DNA of 64,000 nt from Myxococcus dinghuensis. Lineage in GTDB: Bacteria; Myxococcota; Myxococcia; Myxococcales; Myxococcaceae. Below, piece after piece: positions 14,723-26,376 of the stretch. The translations under genes and the position numbers were made by a program. The notes beneath the pieces were generated by a model, which had not been told where the DNA came from, did no database searches, and was given only the letters and a program-made list of their open reading frames with translations. Each line of letters begins with the position of its first letter. Positions within the stretch are counted from its first letter, which is position 1. The stretch covers positions 1 to 64,000 of the forward strand of contig NZ_JAKCFB010000037.1 in the NCBI RefSeq assembly GCF_024198235.1. Reading direction: 5' to 3'.

Positions 14723-15718
14723 TCACATGCGCCACGCGGGGTCCGCCGCCAGGCGGAAGTCCCCACGAAGGCCCCGTCGCCACGCCTCATACCCCGCCAC
14801 GGCGATCATCGCGCCATTGTCCGTGCACAACCGCACGGGCGGCAGGAACATCCGCAGCCCCCGCTCCTCCGCGCGCTGCTTGCACAGCGCCCGCAGCCGG
14901 GAGTTGGCCGCCACGCCGCCGCACAGCACCAGGTGCTTGTGGCCCAGCCGGCGCGCGGCGGCGACGAGCTTCTTGGACAGCACGTCCGCCACCGCCTCCT
15001 GGAAGGACGCGCACAGGTCCGACAGCGCCTGCCCCTGCGGCACGCCGTGCTTCTGCACGTGGTGCAGCACCGCCGTCTTCAGGCCGGAGAAGGACACGTC
15101 GAAGTTGTCGCCCGGCAGCGCGCGAGGGAACCGGATGGCCTCCGGGTCCCCCTGCTGCGCCAACTGGTCGATGGGCAACCCGCCGGGGTACGGCAGCCCG
15201 AGGATGCGCGCCGTCTTGTCGTACGCCTCGCCGGCCGCGTCGTCGCGGGTGCTGCCCACCAGCCGGTACTGACCGAAGGCCTTCACCTCGTAGAGGCTGG
15301 TGTGGCCCCCGGAGACCACCAGCCCCAGGAACGGCGGCTCCGGCGCGTCCTCCAGCAGGCGGATGGCCAGCAGGTGGCCCTCCAGGTGGTTGGCGCCGAC
15401 GAAGGGCTTGCCGGTGGCGAGGCTCAGCCCCTTGGCCACCTGCAGCCCCACGAGCAGCGCGCCGATGAGGCCGGGGCCGGACGTGACGGCGATGAGGTCG
15501 ATGTCGTCGAGCGTCTTGCCCGCGCGTGACAGGGCTTCGTGGACGACCGGCATCACCTGGACGATGTGGTTGCGGGAGGCCAGCTCCGGCACCACCCCGC
15601 CCCAGCGACGGTGGATGTCCACCTGGGTGGAGACGACGTCCGACAGCGCGCGACGGCCGTCCTCGACGACGGCGGCGGCGGTCTCATCACAGGAGGTTTC
15701 CAGACCGAGGACGAGCAA
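14723..15718 (-). CDS. tsaD: tRNA threonylcarbamoyladenosine biosynthesis protein TsaD
   Basis: Catalytic subunit for t6A37 formation on ANN-decoding tRNAs. The 331-residue protein matches the Kae1/TsaD family: LVLGLETSCDETAAAVVEDG, ELASRNHIVQVMPVVHEAL, the metal-binding HLEGHLLA, GLVVSGGHTSLYEV, and LCGGVAANSRLRALCKQ. Start is TTG at 15718, giving the conserved MLVLGLETSCD N-terminus. Its stop overlaps or abuts rsmA. Upstream lies the DUF4388/TPR gene, separated by a hairpin. Confidence 0.95.
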   Translation of the reverse strand: MLVLGLETSCDETAAAVVEDGRRALSDVVSTQVDIHRRWGGVVPELASRNHIVQVMPVVHEALSRAGKTLDDIDLIAVTSGPGLIGALLVGLQVAKGLSLATGKPFVGANHLEGHLLAIRLLEDAPEPPFLGLVVSGGHTSLYEVKAFGQYRLVGSTRDDAAGEAYDKTARILGLPYPGGLPIDQLAQQGDPEAIRFPRALPGDNFDVSFSGLKTAVLHHVQKHGVPQGQALSDLCASFQEAVADVLSKKLVAAARRLGHKHLVLCGGVAANSRLRALCKQRAEERGLRMFLPPVRLCTDNGAMIAVAGYEAWRRGLRGDFRLAADPAWRM

Positions 15719-15768: not shown

Positions 15769-18495
15769 TCACTTTCCGATGGTATCCAGAATCGAGCGGA
15801 CCTCTTTGGCGGAAGCCCCCGTGGGTTCCAGCAACAGATACTTCTTATAGGCCTCCGCCGCCTGGGTATTCCGCCCGGTGGACTGGAAGGCCATGCCCAG
15901 CGACAGCCAGGCGCGGGAGTTCTTGTCGTCCTCCCGGACGACGTCGCCCAGCAGCTTCGCCGCCTCCCGGAACGCGCCCTCCGACTCGAAGCCGTTCACC
16001 AGCGCGATGCCCAGGCCCTCCTTGGCCTCGATCGACGCGGGCTTGAGCTTGAGGGCCTCGCGGTAGTTGGACGCCGCGGCCTTGTGGCGGTTGCCCACCG
16101 TGGCGCTGCGCGCCTGCTTCATGAGCTGGGCGAAGCGCTCCTCCGGATTGACCTGGGGCGGCGCCTCGACGACCGCGCCCCCGGCGTCCGCGCTCGCCGT
16201 GGGCAGCGCCTGGACCCCGGCCGTCCCCGAGTCCGCCCCCGTGGCGACGGGCGCCTCGACGATGGCCGCCCCCGAGTCCGGGCTCGACGTGGTGGGCGGC
16301 GGCTGGGCCACGGCCTGCCCCGCGTCCGGCTCCGGTGCGGCGGTCGTTCCTTCCGGCGTCTTCACCGACTCCGGCGGCGTGGGTGTCTTCGTGTTCGTGG
16401 AGGACGCCTGCGACCCGGGCGCCGCGACGTTCGAGCTCTGGACGGGCGCGGCGTCGGCGGGCGGCTCCCCCCGGCCGAACATCAGCACCGCGGCGACGGC
16501 GGCGATGAGGACGAGCCCCACGCCGACATAGAGCCCCGTGCGCTTCGGACGCACGGCCGCCACGTCCTCCGCGACCGTGGGCGCCGGCTGGGGCGCGGGC
16601 TGTGGAGACGGGGTGACCCCGGGCGTCGGCGCGACCACGGGCGTCGGCGCGGCGGACACGGGGGCCGGGACCGGAGCCAGGGTCAGCGGGGCCGTCGGCG
16701 TCGGCGGCTCCTCGGTGACGACCGGCGCGGGGCGCTCTGGTGCGCCGTGCCCCGGATAGGGCGGCAGCGCGAGCTGCTGCGGCGCGGGGACCGGGACCTC
16801 CTCGACCTCGGCGACCGGGTCGATGTCCACGGCCGGCCCTTCCTGGCCACTCACCAGCGTCACCTCGGACGAGGGCGGTGCCGGCGTCGGCGGGGGCACG
16901 GGCGGGAACGGATTGGGGCCCACGGCGGCGCCGCCGAAGATGGGCGCGCGCGGGGACGACGTCGGCTCGGGGGCGAACGCGCTCGCGGCGGGAACCCCGA
17001 CCGGCTGCGCTCCGGACGCCTGGAAGGCACGCGGGCCCGGGGCCCACCCGGACGCGGGGCCCCACGTGGTGGGCGCGCTGATGCCCTCGGTGTCGACCCG
17101 GCTCCAGTCGAGCAACAGGCTGCGGTGCGCGTGCTCCACCGCGCGGTGGGCCGGAGGCGGCTCGACGAGGAACGACGACCCCTCCGCCACGGTGGGCGGC
17201 AGCGTGGGGGCCTCCGGATCCTCCTCCGCGTTGCCTCCGCCAAGGAAGCGCTTGGGACGCGCCGGGAAGACGACCACGGCGGCCGGCGCCACCGGGCGGG
17301 GCTCGACCGGGGCCTCGACGGGTTCGACCGGCTCCTCCTCCACTCCCGCGGGCGGAGCGAGGACACTCGGCGGCATGGGGCGCGCGGGCGGCGCCTCGAC
17401 GGCGACGACGGCGGGCGGCGGCTCCGGCTCCACGGGCGCGGCGACGGGCTGCGGCGCGACCGGGGCGGGCTCCACGGGCGCGCTCGGCGGCGGAGAGGCG
17501 TTGAGCCACTGCTCGATACCGGGCTTGCTGCTCTGCACCGGCTCCAGCGGGGCATTGCCCAGCTCGCGGATGAGGCCCTCGAAGTAGAGCTTGCTGATGA
17601 TGCCCAGCGCGGCCAGGTCCTCGAAGTCCGAGTCCTCCACCACGCGGCTCAGCGCGCGCTTGCCGTCGAACAGGCGCAAGAGGCCGTTCACCTCGTCCGG
17701 AATCTCCGAGAGCCGGTCGGCGAGCTGGTGGTAGTCGATCTCGAACACCGTCTCCAGCGGAGGCAACTGCTCGAGCATGCGGCCCCACTCGTCGAGGCGC
17801 CGCATGCCCTCCATCAACAGGCCCTGCGTGGAGATCTCGATGCGCTCGGGCCGGTCCAGCGAGGTGAACTGGACGTCGAACTGTCCCTCGAAGGTATTGA
17901 GCAGCCGGTAGAAGGCGTTCTCGCCCTTGAGCCGGCCCAGCTCCGCGTCGATGACGCGACCCTCCTTGAAATAGACGGTGCCGGTGCGCTCGCCCTGGAT
18001 GGAGATGACGCCCGTCTTGCGGCCGATCTCGAACGTCTGGACCAGGTCCACGACGCCCATGTCCGCGAGGCTGCCGCCGAAGCCGCCCTTGGTCGTCTCC
18101 CGCTTCTCGATCCTCTCCTTCTCCGCCTTCTGGAGGATCATCTTCACGCGGGTGACGATCTCTTTGATGTAGATCGGCTTCGTCAGGTAGTCGTCGCCAC
18201 CGAGTTCCAGGCCGCGCACCTTGAACTCGACGGACTTCTGGCTGGTCAGGAAGACGAACGGGATGAACTTGAAGCGCTCATCCGACTTGAGCGCCTTGCA
18301 CAGCTCGAAGCCGTCCATCTCCGGCATCTTGGTGTCCGCGAGCACCAGATCCGGCGGGCTGATCTGCACCTTCTCGATCGCATCCTTGCCGTGAATGGCC
18401 GTCGTCACGGAGAAGCCAGCCTTCTTGAGGCTGACCTCCATGACGCGGAGGCTCTTCGCGTCTCCATCCACCAGGAGCAGGTGCTGCTTGGCCAC
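15769..18495 (-). CDS. receiver-DUF4388 protein with TM segment and periplasmic TPR
   Basis: A 908-residue signalling protein. Residues 1-125 form a CheY-like receiver ([20 protein letters not shown], phospho-acceptor Asp in [26 protein letters not shown]). Residues about 140-250 form a DUF4388 domain ([40 protein letters not shown]). A long Pro/Ala/Val-rich region (350-650) leads to a TM helix near 655-675 ([18 protein letters not shown]), then another low-complexity segment and C-terminal TPR units (about 790-908; [33 protein letters not shown]). The GTG start has AAAGG upstream; an ATG at 18552 is less likely. It is 215 bases downstream of the giant DnaJ gene, which also begins with a DUF4388-like domain. 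Confidence 0.85.
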
Positions 18496-18710
18496 GGTTA
18501 CTTGCCTTTCATCACGGAAGACGACTCGCGAAGAGCCCGGCGCGGGGAGCATCCTGCCCGCTTTCCAGGCATGTCAATGGGTTGGAGCGCGGCGGGAGCA
18601 GGCTGGCCTCCCGCCAGCCGGGAGGTCCCCGGGCGCCCCTGGGGTATGTCCCACTCGGGTCGCTTCGAGCCTCGAGGAGGGGGTCGCATGACGCGGAGCG
18701 GGAGCGGCCC

Positions 18711-21700
18711 TCAGCGGAAGAAGCCGCCCTTCTTGGGTGGGTTCTTCTTCCGCATGTCGATCAGCCGCAGCTCCTGGTTCGCCTCCAGGTGCTTGGAATT
18801 GGCGCGCACCGCTTCCCGGAAGTGCTTCTCCGCCCGGTCCATGTCGCCCTCGACCCGCGCGATGACCCCGAGCTGATAGTGCGCCCGGTCGCAGTTGGGG
18901 TCGGCCCGCACCGCGTCCAGCATCATCTGCTTGGCCTTGGCCATGTCCGCCTTGCGGGCCGGATCCATGTAGATGGCCCAGGCGCGAGCCGCCAGGTAGG
19001 TGGCCTTCGGATCCAGGGCGTGGGCGCGCTCGTAGTGATCCGACGCGGTCAGGAAGTCGCGCTTGCGGAAGTAGACCTCGCCCATCTTGTACAGGTCGTC
19101 CGCGCTGCTCTCCGGGCGCCCCGGAGCCGGGCGGCCACCGGAAGACGCGGCCGGAGCGGCGGTGGCCACGGGGGCCTTGGGCAGCGACTGCTGGGCCTGG
19201 AGGGTCTGGATGTAGGCCTTGCGCCGGGCGTCGTCGTAGAGGACCTCGTAGGCCTCGCGGATCCCCTCGAAGACGGAGGTGATCTTCTGCGACAGGTGCG
19301 GCAGCGTGGGCGGGAGGCGATCCGGGTGGAACACCTTCGCGAGGCTGAGGAAGGCGGCCTTCACCTGCTCGCGCGTGGCGTCCTGGGAGACGCCGAGCAC
19401 GTAGAAGTGGTCGCGCCGGGCCTGGACGTCGGCGTAGCGCTGCTCGATCTGCTGGGCGTGGCGCGCCTCGTCCGGCTTGGGCGGCTCGGTGGGGGCGGCG
19501 GGCTGGGTGGCCGCGGCGGCGGGGGTCGTCGGCACGGCGCCCACCGGGGCCGTGGCCGGAGCGGCGCGGGCGCCCAGCACGCCCATGTTCTCCATCGCAC
19601 GGCGCAGCAGGCGCTGTCGCCGGAGCTTCGCTGCCTCGTCGGGGTTGGAGGGATCTGCCGCCACGTCGTCCTCGTCGAAGTCCCAGTCGTCCAGGTCTCC
19701 GGACGGCTCGGCCCACGCAGTGTCTCCAGTTGGCTCCCCGTTGTCACCGGGGAAGGGGTCGAAGCTGGACTCGATCGTCGCTTCGACGATGGCCTCGACT
19801 GGCGGCTCGTCGCCGCCGACGTTCGCCTGATTGACATCCGAGCGGACGAGCGTTTCCAGGTGGGCATCCACCTGCTGGAGCGCCGCCTCGAAGGAGGCGG
19901 TCAGGTTTTCGGCGGCCTCGTCCTTGTCGAAGGAGACGATGCGCCAGAGGTCTTCGTCGCTGGCCCGGGGAGCCGCCGGGCCCAGTCGCAAGGGCGGCGG
20001 CGCGGCGACGGGCGCGGGCTTCGCGGTCCAGAGGCTGTCGGAGGGCTCCGCGCGGGCAGGCTCGGCGCGCGGCGGAGGGCCCACGGGCGAGAGCACCGGG
20101 GGGCCGGCCTTCGGCACGGAGGGCTGGCGTGCCACGGGCGTGAGCACCGGGGGGCCCGAGCCAGGACGCGACGGGAGGGCGGGCGGCGTCGGCAGTGGCT
20201 CCGACTCCGGCATGGCCTCGGCCCAGAATTCGGGCTCGGGCTCCGCCTCCAGCAGCGGGAGCTCCGACTCCACCTCGTCGGCAGACGTGAGCGCCGTCTC
20301 CTTCGCCCGCCATGATTCGATCTGCACCGGGACCTGGTCCTTGGTCCGGGTGGGCGGAGTCGTGCGCGGTGGCTCGTCGGCCAGCCAGGACTCCAGCGGC
20401 TGGGTCCGCGAACGGCGCCGGACCTCTTCCAGGTCATGCGCGAACTCGGCCTGGGCCTTCTCGCGTGCGGAGCGCAGCGCGTCGCGGCTCTCGGTCTGGA
20501 ACGAGAGCCCCCCCTGCGGGGAGGACGCGAGCGGCGGAACGTTGGTGGACCAGGAGGACGACTCCGATGGGGATGGCTCCTCGGAGTCCGCGAGGAGGAT
20601 GTCGCCGACATCGAGCGTGAGGGCCTCGGCGTCGTCGCTGACAGGGCCGATGGCCGGCGGGGACTGGCGAGCCTCCGCCTCGAGTCGGGCGGCCTCGACC
20701 AGACGCGCCTCTTCCGCCTGGCGCGCCTGCGCCTCGGCCATGAGCCGAGCCTCCTCGGCCTGACGCGCCTGCTCCGCGAGACGCGCCTCCTTCGCGCGAC
20801 GTACCGCCTCCGCGCGACGCCGCTCGATCTCGAGGCGGATCTCCTCGGCGTGTCGTGCTTCCTCAGCGCGATGGCGCTCCTCTGCGAGGCGGGCTTCGTC
20901 GACTAGCCGGGCCTCTTCGGCGAGTCGTGCCTCTTCCGCAGCCTGCCGAGCCTCTTCGGCGAGTCGAGCTTCTTCAACAAGCCGGGCCTCTTCCGCGAGT
21001 CGACGCTCCTCCGCGAGCCGAGCCTCTTCCTCCGCACGCAGACGGGCCTCTTCCGCCAGCCGAGCCTCTTCAGCCAGCCGAGCCTCTTCCGCGAGGCGGG
21101 CCTCCTCGGCCAGTCGAGCCTCTTCCGCGAGGCGGGCCTCCTCCTCTTCTCGCAGTCGCGCCTCTTCGGCCAGCCGTGCTTCTTCTGCGCGCAGTCGCGC
21201 TTCCTCGGCGAGGCGGGCCTCTTCGGCCAGCCGCGCCTCCTCCGCTGCTCGCAGACGGGCCTCTTCGGCGAGGAGGGCCTCCTTCGCAAGTCGTGCCTCT
21301 TCGGCGAGGCGTGCCTCTTCCTCCGCACGCAGCCGAGCCTCTTCCGCAAGTCGAGCCTCTTCCGCGAGGCGGGCCGCCTCCGCAAGTCGAGCCTCTTCGG
21401 CCAGACGTGCCTCTTCTGCAAGGCGAGCCGCTTCCGCGAGGCGGGCCGCCTCCTCTTCGGCCAGTCGCGCCTCTTCGGCCAGTCGCGCCTCTTCGGCGAG
21501 CCGACGCTCCTCCGCGAGTCGGGCCTCTTCCTCCGCGCGGAGTCGCGCCTCTTCAGCGAGCCGAGCCTCCTCCGCCAGCCGACGCTCCTCCGCGAGTCGG
21601 GCCTCTTCCGCCAGCCGAGCCTCTTCCGCGAGGCGGGCCGCCTCCGCCAGCCGAGCCTCTTCGGCCAGTCGTGTCTCTTCGGCGAGTCGAGCCTCTTCCG

Positions 21701-24602
21701 CGAGGCGACGCTCCTCCGCGAGTCGGCCCTCTTCGGCCAGTCGCGCCTCTTCGGCGAGACGACGCTCCTCTGCGAGCCGGGCCTCTTCCTCCGCACGCAG
21801 CCGGGCTTCTTCGGCCAGTCGGCGTTCTTCCGCTAGGCGCGCTTCCTCCGCTATCCGAGCTTCCTCCTCTGCTCGCAGCCGGGCCTCTTCGGCTAGGCGA
21901 CGCTCTTCGGCCAGACGCGCCTCTTCTTCAGCACGAAGTCGAGTCTCTTCAGCGAGACGCGCCTCCTCAGCGAGGCGACGCTCTTCGGACAAGCGTTCTT
22001 CCTCGGCAAGACGTGCCTCCTCTGCAAGGCGACGTTCCTCTTCCTGTCGTGCCTCTTCTTCTGCACGCTGTCGGGCTTCTTCGACGAGTCGTGCCTCTTC
22101 TTCTGCGCGGATCCGAGCCTCTTCCTCCGCACGAAGCCGAGCCTCTTCTGCAAGGCGACGCTCCTCAGCGAAACGGGCCTCCTCTGCCAGCCGAGCCTCT
22201 TCCGCGAGGAGTGCTTCTTCCTCCGCACGCAGCCGGGCTTCTTCCGCCAGGCGGGCCTCCTCCGCCAGCCGAGCTTCTTCAGCGAGACGACGCTCCTCAG
22301 CCAGTCGAGCCTCTTCGGCGAGGCGGGCCTCTTCGGCAAGTCGTGCCTCTTCCTCCGCACGCTGCCGGGCCTCCTCAGCCAGTCGAGCCTCTTCGGCGAG
22401 ACGACGCTCCTCCGCGAGCCGAGCCTCCTCCTCCGCACGCAGCCGGGATTCTTCAGCGAGCCGAGCCTCTTCCTCCGCACGCAGCCGAGCTTCTTCCTCC
22501 AGCCGGCGTTGTTCGGCCAGTCGCGCCTCTTCTTCGGCGCGAAGCCGATCTTCCTCCGCCAGCCGAGCGTCTTCCTCAGCACGGAGCCGGGCTTCTTCCG
22601 CTAGCCGAGCTTCTTCGGCGAGACGGCGTTCCTCCGCGAGTCGGGCCTCCTCTGCCAACCGACGCTCTTCCGCGAGTCGGGCCTCTTCCGCCAGCCGAGC
22701 CGCTTCAGCGCGACGGGCCTCCTCCGCGAGACGGGCCTCCTCCGCCAACCGATGCTCTTCGGCGAGTCGTGCCTCTTCCGCAGCCTGCCGAGCCTCTTCG
22801 GCGAGTCGAGCTTCTTCAACAAGCCGGGCCTCTTCCGCGAGTCGACGCTCCTCCGCGAGCCGAGCCTCTTCCTCCGCACGCAGCCGGGCCTCTTCCGCGA
22901 GTCGACGCTCCTCCGCGAGCCGAGCCTCTTCCTCCGCACGCAGCCGGGCCTCTTCCGCCAGCCGAGCCTCTTCCGCGAGGCGGGCCTCCTCCTCTGCACG
23001 AAGTCGAGCCTCTTCGGCCAGCCGAGCCTCCTCGGCCAGTCGAGCCTCTTCGGCCAGCCGAGCCTCCTCGGCCAGTCGAGCCTCTTCCGCGAGGCGGGCT
23101 TCCTCGGTGAGGCGGGCCTCTTCGGCCAGCCGCGCCTCCTCCGCTGCTCGCAGACGGGCCTCTTCGGCGAGGCGGGCCTCCTTCGCAAGTCGTGCCTCTT
23201 CGGCGAGGCGTGCCTCTTGCTCCGCACGCAGCCGAGCCTCTTCCTTGAGACGGGCCTCTTCCGCGACACGCGCCTCTTCTGCGAGGCGAGCCGCCTCCTC
23301 TGCACGAAGTCGAGCCTCTTCGGCCAGACGTGCCTCTTCTGCAAGGCGAGCCGCTTCCGCGAGGCGGGCCGCCTCCTCTTCGGCCAGTCGCGCCTCTTCG
23401 GCCAGTCGCGCCTCTTCGGCGAGCCGACGCTCCTCCGCGAGTCGGGCCTCTTCGGCCAGTCGCGCCTCTTCGGCGAGCCGACGCTCCTCCGCGAGTCGGG
23501 CCTCTTCGGCCAGTCGCGCCTCTTCGGCGAGCCGACGCTCCTCCGCGAGTCGGGCCTCTTCCGCCAGCCGAGCCTCTTCCGCGAGTCGCGCCTCTTCAGC
23601 GAGCCGAGCCTCCTCCGCCAGTCGCGCCTCTTCAGCGAGCCGGGCCTCCTCCGCCAGCCGACGCTCCTCCGCGAGCCGAGCCTCTTCCGCCAGCCGAGCC
23701 TCTTCGGCTAGACGACGCTCCTCCTCGAGTCGTGCCTCTTCGGCGAGCCGACGCTCCTCCTCGAGCCGGGCCTCTTCGGCCAGCCGCGCCTCTTCGGCCA
23801 GTCGCGCCTCTTCGGCGAGCCGACGCTCGTCCGCGAGCCGGGCCTCCTCCTCCGCACGCAGCCTGGCGTCTTCCGCCAGTCGCGCCTCTTCCGCGCGTCG
23901 AGCCTCTTCCTCCGCACGCAGCCGGGCCTCTTCCTCGCGTCGAGCCTCCTCCTCCCTCCGTGCCCGCTCCCGCGCCTCCCACTCCTCGACCGTCAGGGAC
24001 TCGACACAGCCCTCGCGCTCGAGCACGAGCAGCAGGGCCTCCCGCGCAGGCGTGAGCGCCCCGGGCATCCGGAACGACTCCAGCGTCGCGAGCAGCTCCC
24101 GCTCCGAGGCATCCGTCAGCCACGGCTCGCACGCCGCCATGTCGACACAGCGATACACCCGCGCCCCGGAACTCCGCGCCCTCGGCCGCTCCAGCGCCGC
24201 GCGCACCACCCGCGAGCCGGCGATGGGACGGAACTCCTCCTCCACGCTCCCCGGCTCGAACGCGGCCACCTCGGCCAGCTCACTCAACCGCCGCACGTGG
24301 GCCAGCACCTGCTGCTCGGCCACCGTGTCGGGTCGGAGCCCGTGAGCCTCCAGCAGATCCTCGTCCGGCTCCCCCGTCCCGCCCCGTGCCCACAGCGCGT
24401 CCAGCGCCTCCGCGCTCAACAACCCGCTCTGCAGGAGCGCCTGCGCCGGACTCTGGAACCCGAACCCCAGCCGCGTCCCCACCAGGTCGCCGCCGCGCAA
24501 CGTCAGCCGCGATTGCCGCCCCCCGGCGGACAACGTCAGCCATCCGGTGGCTCGGGACTTGTGGGCGGAGTACAGCGCTTCGGCGGCCTGCGACGGGGTC
24601 AT
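18711..24602 (-). CDS. giant DUF4388-like/helical-repeat/DnaJ/TPR protein
   Basis: A 1963-residue protein. Residues 1-95 ([40 protein letters not shown]) resemble DUF4388. From about 206 to 1312 there is an uninterrupted repeat built from six-residue units ([12 protein letters not shown], with LRAEEEAR insertions), almost only E, A, R and L. A Pro/Ser/Ala-rich region follows (1315-1720). A J-domain lies at about 1725-1795 ([20 protein letters not shown], with HPD in [10 protein letters not shown]), so it could stimulate a DnaK partner. TPR units occupy 1837-1950. The six-residue period does not give a heptad; arginines can pair with glutamates at i-3, i+3 and i+4, suggesting a long single alpha helix. 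It has no signal peptide. ATG at 24602; trmL lies 34 bases upstream on the same strand. Role unknown. Confidence 0.88.
20665..23985 (-). repeat. degenerate 18-bp tandem repeat encoding LAEEAR-type hexapeptides
   Basis: About 3.3 kb of near-continuous 18-base units (on the plus strand, variants of gcctcttcggccagtcg), interrupted by units carrying tcctccgcacgcag. Several blocks of more than 100 bases recur almost exactly: for example, the stretch near 20920-21020 reappears near 22765-22870, and that near 21410-21500 near 23330-23430. This points to segmental duplication by unequal recombination. The reading frame is kept throughout. Copy number is likely variable between strains and error-prone in assembly. 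Confidence 0.95.
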
Positions 24603-24636: not shown

Positions 24637-25140
24637 TCAACTTGCCGGGGGCCCACGCCCGCCTGCCCCCGTGAAACATACCTGTCGCAGGGCCTCGTAC
24701 GTCCCAATCCCCACCGCCGTGGACAGGTTCAGGCTCCGACGCTCCTCCAACATGGGAATCGTCACCGGCGTCCCCGTCCCCCCCTCCATCACCTCCGGCA
24801 GGAGCCCCGTCACCTCCGAGCCGAACACCAGGTGGTCCCCCGCCTCGAAGCGCGCCTCGAACAGCGACGTCTCCGCCCGGGCGGAGAACAGCCACCGCCG
24901 GGCCTCCGGGTACTCCGCCACGTAGGCCGAATAGGTGGGATACAGCCGCAGGAAGACCTTGTCCCAGTAGTCCAGCCCCGCGCGCTTCAAGTGCCGGTCG
25001 TCGATGGAGAAACCCAGGGGCTCCACCAGGATGAGCCGACACCCCGTCACGGCGCACAGCCGGGCCACGTTGCCCGTGTTGGGGGGAATCTGGGGGGACA
25101 CCAGGACCAGATGCAGAGGACGCGCCAGGGGCTCGAGCAT
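24637..25140 (-). CDS. trmL: tRNA (cytidine/uridine-2'-O-)-methyltransferase TrmL
   Basis: SPOUT-family enzyme that 2'-O-methylates the wobble base of tRNA-Leu. The 167-residue protein has the small single-domain TrmL layout: [50 protein letters not shown], the knot motif [15 protein letters not shown] and the SAM-binding [22 protein letters not shown] at 25140. Only 17 bases separate it from the divergent DUF192 gene. Downstream, 34 bases away, is the giant DnaJ gene. Confidence 0.93.
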
Positions 25141-25571: not shown

Positions 25572-25611
25572 CCGCCCCGAGTTTCTCGCCCCTTTGGAAG
25601 AGTCCCCGCGC

Positions 25612-26376
25612 ATGCGCATCGAGGTAGCCGGCAGCACCCACGTCGGGATGAAGCGGAATCACAACGAGGACAACTTCCTCATGCTGCCCGAGGAGCACCT
25701 CTTCATCGTCGCGGACGGGATGGGTGGCCACTCCTCGGGGGAGATCGCCAGCCGCATCGCCGTGGACGAGCTGGGTGAGTTCTACAAGATGACGTCCAAG
25801 GACCAGGACAGCACCTGGCCCTTCAAGATGGACAAGCAGCGCAACTACGACGAGAACCGGCTGGCCACGGGCATCAAGCTCGCCAACGCGCGCATCTTCG
25901 AGCGGGCCAGCAGCGAGTCGAAGTACAAGGGCATGGGGACGACCATCGTCAGCGTGCACTTCGCCTCGGACGTGGCCTACGTCGGGCACGTGGGCGACAG
26001 CCGCGTGTACTTCTTCCGGTCCGGGACGCTGAAGCAGATCACCGAGGACCACTCGCTGCTCAACGACTACCTCAAGGCGAAGAAGCTCTCGCCCGAGGAG
26101 GTCGAGAACTTCCCGCACAAGAACGTCATCGTCCGCGCCCTGGGCATGAAGGAGTCCGTCCAGGTCGACGTGTCGCGCGTCGAGCCGCAGGTGGGCGACG
26201 TCTTCCTGCTGTGCTCGGACGGCCTGAGCGGCATGGTGACGGACGCGCAGATGCAGGAGATCCTCGCGCGCACCCCGGAGCTGGACAAGGCCTGCTCGCA
26301 GCTCATCGACATGGCCAACGCCGCGGGCGGCAACGACAACGTCACCTGCATCCTGGCGCGCTACCACGCCAACTGA
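25612..26376 (+). CDS. PP2C-type Ser/Thr protein phosphatase
   Basis: A 254-residue cytosolic metal-dependent phosphatase that would oppose Hanks-type kinases such as the one at 7764. The conserved PPM motifs are present: MKRNHNEDN, FIVADGMGGHSSGEIAS (metal-binding Asp and Gly), KGMGTTIVS, YVGHVGDSRVYFF, LLCSDGLSGMV and GGNDNVTCILAR. An in-frame TTG at 25594 exists, but the ATG at 25612 has GGAAGAG at the right distance and begins at the beta-strand (MRIEVAGSTHVGMKRNHNED) that opens the fold. Convergent with murU across a strong hairpin. Confidence 0.93.
   Translation: MRIEVAGSTHVGMKRNHNEDNFLMLPEEHLFIVADGMGGHSSGEIASRIAVDELGEFYKMTSKDQDSTWPFKMDKQRNYDENRLATGIKLANARIFERASSESKYKGMGTTIVSVHFASDVAYVGHVGDSRVYFFRSGTLKQITEDHSLLNDYLKAKKLSPEEVENFPHKNVIVRALGMKESVQVDVSRVEPQVGDVFLLCSDGLSGMVTDAQMQEILARTPELDKACSQLIDMANAAGGNDNVTCILARYHAN

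Follow-up and report, generated by a model that had tools for sequence, protein, structure and literature searches.

A gene on the minus strand of the window (the whole 64,000-nucleotide stretch of DNA analysed here) encodes a J-domain protein whose head and tail are set apart by a charged repeat of 1,108 residues, which, judging from its residue pattern, very probably folds as one single alpha helix. We propose that this helix, together with the disordered linker that would follow it, joins a DUF4388-type head to a J-domain and TPR tail as a semi-flexible tether, an explanation that we regard as moderately probable as a whole, while for the tethering function taken by itself the balance is even. 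Held more tentatively, as a possibility falling somewhat short of even, is the broader proposition that a monomeric single helix of ~1,000 residues, several times the described lengths, exists in living myxobacteria and tethers an Hsp70 co-chaperone, having grown from zero within one family. The initial annotation had placed a J-domain protein gene at 18711-24602, with a repeat of ~1100 Glu, Arg, Ala and Leu residues; its coordinates, strand and open reading frame are right, and the repeat found differs little from that estimate, with the hexad dominant. The minus-strand frame extends without a stop from 24707 to 18711, and translation likely begins at the ATG at 24602, 34 nt past the trmL stop. 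The gene, its parts and its neighbours are as follows.

18711..24602, minus strand: whole gene, 1,963 aa, 221 kDa, pI 4.8, comprising head, repeat, linker, J-domain and TPR
23988..24602, minus strand: divergent DUF4388-type head (PF14332), aa 1-205, from orthologous heads and AlphaFold
20664..23987, minus strand: charged repeat, aa 206-1313, 1,108 aa, of LAEEAR hexads and LRAEEEAR octads, a predicted continuous single alpha helix
19413..20663, minus strand: Pro/Ala/acid-rich linker from repeat to J-domain, ~400 residues, by composition
19212..19412, minus strand: J-domain (PF00226), aa 1731-1797, Pfam E 3.2e-12
19320..19328, minus strand: HPD motif, aa 1759-1761, inside the J-domain and identical in all 22 sequences aligned
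18792..18887, minus strand: best TPR unit (PF00515), aa 1906-1937, inside the conserved C-terminal TPR region, Pfam 3e-9
24637..25140, minus strand: trmL-like tRNA methyltransferase immediately upstream, synteny kept
15769..18552, minus strand: next gene downstream, a response regulator with DUF4388 and TPR and without the repeat, synteny kept
14723..15718, minus strand: tsaD, the end of the conserved block, E 5.9e-128, synteny kept
25594..26376, plus strand: divergent PP2C-type phosphatase beside the block, synteny kept

The layout of DUF4388-like head, J-domain and TPR tail, also put forward earlier, is borne out by profile searches. The window protein's own head matches DUF4388 weakly (E 0.003, 18.0 bits, under the 25-bit cut-off); every one of the 27 heads from orthologues matches it, with 1e-12 as the best E value, and on these matches the DUF4388-like identity of the head is real. 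The fold of the head is predicted with high confidence (AlphaFold, pLDDT 90), and a Foldseek search with it returned no convincing solved fold (best E 0.3). In structural comparison, aa 49-104 weakly resemble the c-di-GMP-binding GSPIIB domains of PilF and MshE (Z ~3) and aa 142-205 weakly resemble winged-helix-like domains (Z up to 4.9), matches on which no conclusion is built. At the other end, the J-domain scores 46.8 bits against the PF00226 cut-off of 27.8 (Pfam 3e-12, with 3e-9 for the TPR), full-length DnaJ models match the protein solely over the J-domain stretch, and by Pfam the DnaJ zinc-finger and C-terminal domains are absent, TPR alone following the J-domain. Downstream of the J-domain, none of the parts that would mark a classical DnaJ of class A or B (zinc fingers, C-terminal beta domains, a Gly/Phe region) was found either, and with nothing but TPR in their place the protein is a class C J-domain protein. 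The linker, rich in Pro (54), Ala (52) and Glu (39) over aa 1314-1690, is by this composition probably mostly disordered, and the protein contains no transmembrane stretch (top 19-residue hydropathy 0.94). The same genome encodes a second very long J-domain protein (L084:1673-8671, contig C36), a 2,333-aa frame with a DUF4388-like region, a C-terminal J-domain bearing HPL in place of HPD, and a long Ala/Glu/Arg/Ser-rich region whose charge period of 7.04 is heptad-like. Myxococcus xanthus possesses 16 J-domain proteins and 15 Hsp70s (PMC10313047; PMC8265645), and our search of the literature found no study of the present protein, nor of DUF4388 in Myxococcus.

The case for a single alpha helix rests principally on how charges are arranged. 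Residues 206-1313 comprise 364 Glu, 312 Ala, 232 Arg and 156 Leu, with 4 Lys, 1 Gly and 0 Pro, such that Ala makes up 28% of the repeat, Lys is almost absent and the net charge is -133. Hydrophobic residues stand 6 apart in 117 instances and 8 apart in 25 (LRAEEEAR), with a mean of 6.56; the hexad is dominant, yet not pure. The hexad geometry described in the initial annotation holds, in that each Arg pairs with Glu at i-3, i+3 and i+4, and the leucines turn by ~240 degrees from one hexad to the next. Opposite charges occur 343 times at i+3 and 278 times at i+4, where ~156 would be expected at either spacing; for like charges the counts are 9 and 8, with ~172 expected. Of the 236 basic residues, 233 have Glu or Asp at i+-3 or i+-4, most of them with three acidic partners. 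The pairing is kept in the octads (134 opposite vs 3 like pairs) and in other irregular units (88 vs 2), which indicates that the alpha-helical pairing rule is conserved and not the unit length, and it recurs in about 30 orthologues of differing repeat sequence and length. The charge spectrum peaks at a period of 6.4 (power 23.7 vs a maximum of 5.6 over 500 shuffles), and periodicity is significant in all 131 of 131 64-residue windows, at periods of ~6.0-6.75. Under FT_CHARGE, a single alpha helix (SAH) is recognised by a regular charge period of ~6-9 residues along the segment, a range that includes the median of 6.35 found here. The hydrophobic moment (0.32) is below that of the repeat's own shuffles (0.46), in contrast to tropomyosin (0.56 vs shuffle 0.34), and leucines are about equal in all six 60-degree sectors round the helix. 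The repeat thus combines the sequence marks of an SAH, namely opposite charges at i+3 and i+4, few like charges and no hydrophobic seam, and its helix propensity is 1.31, with a beta propensity of 0.78. Given a 300-residue piece as a single sequence, AlphaFold drew one helix over residues 2-299 (pLDDT 89.5), which is weak support and weighs little, because charged repeats are readily drawn as helices. A phmmer search of the repeat against PDB chains gave zero matches up to E 10, probably owing to composition filters. The single-helix pattern claimed at the outset gains backing from charge pairing, the lack of a hydrophobic stripe, the orthologues and, to this lesser degree, AlphaFold. Designed Glu-Arg helices containing Arg only (ER3) formed aggregates at neutral pH, and designs rich in Ala formed dimers (PMC5347031); by analogy this may count against a monomeric helix, the repeat being near Lys-free and rich in Ala, while its strongly negative net charge and even Ala distribution would argue against self-association.

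As a helix, the repeat has a contour of about 166 nm, and the ~165 nm expected earlier stands as a contour length. The rigid ruler envisaged with it is not supported: for an SAH persistence length of ~15 nm (PMC5347031), the calculated mean end-to-end distance is ~67 nm. Repeat length differs between close relatives and varies freely above a few hundred residues; among complete genes of the window's genus it ranges from 658 to 1,161 residues (mean 989), and this comparison of relatives goes against a ruler. A span of ~67 nm together with freely drifting length suggests a wormlike tether, and we infer that the exact length of the helix is unimportant once it is long enough. The predicted helix does lie between the head and the J-domain and TPR tail, and the ~400-residue Pro/Ala-rich linker further separates it from the J-domain.

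The drift in length among close relatives, the net charge of -133 across the repeat and the tendency of Arg-rich designed helices to self-associate (PMC5347031) can be cited for a single helix that serves as bulk or charge, whether as an acidic brush for solubility, for exclusion from nucleoid or membrane, or as a condensate scaffold. We consider such a role unlikely, if worth keeping in view, in that strict i+3/i+4 pairing and a continuous helix have been kept, though a brush needs neither. An ordinary two- or three-stranded coiled-coil rod of unusual register, along which the protein would dimerise, is distinctly improbable. The composition resembles that of many proteins annotated as coiled coil, the leucines are regularly spaced, and coiled-coil predictors are known to mix up coiled coils and single helices (PMC5378345). 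However, no orthologue shows spectral power at 3.5, 3.6 or 7 residues, the best hydrophobic occupancy of a/d positions is below shuffle (0.25 vs 0.30; tropomyosin, 0.56 vs 0.41), the leucines are isotropic round the helix, and alignment gaps between close relatives, as far as an uncertain repeat alignment allows, come in every residue count with no preference for 7. The earlier reading left out two rivals that are specific to hexads. One is an alpha/beta coiled coil of the type described in PMC4786415, a trimer with a beta-layer per hexad and all leucines in the core. Hexad periodicity makes beta-layers, and Leu-Ala at positions 1-2 fits the hydrophobic-then-small preference (PMC4786415), but that same work neither found nor managed to build a protein whose beta-layers follow one another at uninterrupted hexad spacing; moreover, the 25 octads are at odds with units of 6 or 9 residues, a true helix is needed for the i+4 charge rule, which is kept across octads, and beta propensity falls well below helix propensity (0.78 vs 1.31), leaving this fold a very slender prospect. 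Least credible is a left-handed beta-helix, in which LAEEAR would act as an LpxA/LpxD-type hexapeptide in a short stiff prism of ~30 nm: the pattern [LIV]-[GAED]-X2-[STAV]-X formally fits 73% of window hexads and NCBIfam models of YdcK and LpxD give sub-threshold matches across the repeat, but these reach 85.8 of 350 and 49.1 of 207 bits with single domains all below pass, Pfam returns no hexapeptide family, the inward position 5 is charged, nearly always Arg, in 20% of hexads, Gly/Asn/Pro amount to 0.3% and V/I/T/F/Y/W to 1.8%, charges of the same sign would lie above one another at i+18 (297 like against 106 opposite pairs, and as many as 513 against 9 in orthologues), octads interrupt the hexads, and AlphaFold draws a helix.

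The favoured reading, a semi-flexible tether built on a single helix, may be set out as follows. J-domains carrying the HPD motif recruit DnaK and stimulate it, and TPRs bind proteins. The protein would be a cytoplasmic J-domain co-chaperone, docked by its head to a partner or site. The repeat, as a lone helix stiff over ~15 nm and wormlike beyond, would act as a non-sticky semi-flexible spacer; in series with the disordered linker it could let the TPR/J end reach distant clients and pass them on to a partner DnaK at a distance of tens of nanometres. Any connection with type IV pili or social motility via DnaK homologues (PMC9239167, PMC8265645) is no more than an analogy.

Across relatives, the head is matched in 76 of 100 genomes and 34 of 46 genera; the genome collection was scanned with the J/TPR tail, an alignment of all heads being too diverse. 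About 30 complete orthologues carry repeats of 468-1,161 residues, including 846 in Myxococcus xanthus AM003 and 1,130 in Citreicoccus inhibens. The long frame is also present in single-contig (closed) genomes, so an assembly artefact, the concern raised initially, is removed; draft assemblies often stop within or beside the repeat, as expected of a repeat this size. Orthologues lie mostly in the same gene order, and the block of trmL, J-domain gene, response-regulator-DUF4388-TPR gene and tsaD, with the divergent PP2C gene, is conserved family-wide and partly in other families. In L082 and L083, two outgroup genomes from a different family, head, J-domain and TPR are joined by a Pro/Ala-rich linker alone, without the repeat; early-branching family members have a charged helix of ~70-210 residues and later ones 468-1,161. 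By eye, the heads of those two outgroup proteins show two LGxxLLxxGLI-like motifs in succession. An orthologue from another family of the same order (L091) has, at the position of the charged repeat, an Arg/Glu-rich REEAERVARETAE-like repeat of its own in which opposite charges are in excess at i+4 and not at i+3, perhaps an independent extension. Record BNCN01000011.1 (L125), deposited as Comamonas sp. KCTC 72670, is as long as a contig of a genome of the window's genus (G024), and the Comamonas label is probably wrong.

At the sequence level, a degenerate 10-residue repeat pattern has 49 sites in the 10.4-Mb genome, all within this gene, and a three-hexad pattern, looked for in 195 genomes of the phylum, occurs in 74, which belong to a single family, with 0 for the reversed control. 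Third codon positions of the hexads are 5-6 times more divergent than first and second positions, which implies that the protein sequence of the repeat is under selection while its DNA diverges. The repeat is far richer than the other parts of the gene in codons ending in A or T (for Ala, 0.32 against 0.09; for Arg, 0.52 against 0.11; for Glu, 0.38 against 0.11), a shift common to nearly every orthologue. That such codons had been selected so as to limit DNA recombination was rejected, as the real DNA has more repeated 20-mers than recoded versions. Exact DNA matches of at least 120 nt inside the repeat, spaced 1842-1923 nt apart (~614-641 codons), suggest a large internal duplication or gene conversion.

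If folded as predicted, the repeat would rank with the longest known single alpha helices, and selection would have held the charge rule over ~1,000 residues while unit length, register and total length drifted. It would also lend physical reach to an Hsp70 system, and we know of no other bacterial case of comparable reach. The progression from no repeat through ~70 and ~200 to over 1,100 residues constitutes a natural series for testing the role of such helices.

Among known systems, trichohyalin, an animal structural protein, contains a very long Glu/Arg-rich region that has been proposed as an elongated helical rod. Closer to hand, other myxobacterial proteins combine DUF4388, J-domain and TPR; one of these, in the same genome (L088, 631 aa), shares the three modules, but lacks the long charged repeat and has an extra receiver domain. 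The SAH or ER-K helices of myosins VI, VII and X and of drebrin resemble the myxobacterial repeat in being Glu/Arg-rich and Pro/Gly-poor, in their i+3/i+4 opposite-charge networks, in having no seam and in bridging two domains. However, they extend to ~40-200 residues (PMC5347031), the longest in myosins being about 200 (PMC5378345), whereas the myxobacterial repeat reaches 468-1,161, is near Lys-free and carries Leu at about every sixth residue. Zuotin (Zuo1) is likewise a J-domain protein with one long alpha helix, which spans two ribosomal subunits (PMC8060413); that helix is much shorter, the other domains differ, there is no DUF4388 head and no homology is claimed. TolA domain II is also a long helical spacer of variable length in a bacterial protein (110-335 residues; PMC12204202), but TolA, unlike the myxobacterial protein, is periplasmic, membrane-anchored and not a chaperone. 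Neither single alpha helices nor long-helix J-domain proteins are new as kinds; what is new is the length of the repeat, its Leu-containing near-Lys-free hexad, its family-wide conservation, and its combination with a DUF4388 head and a J/TPR tail.
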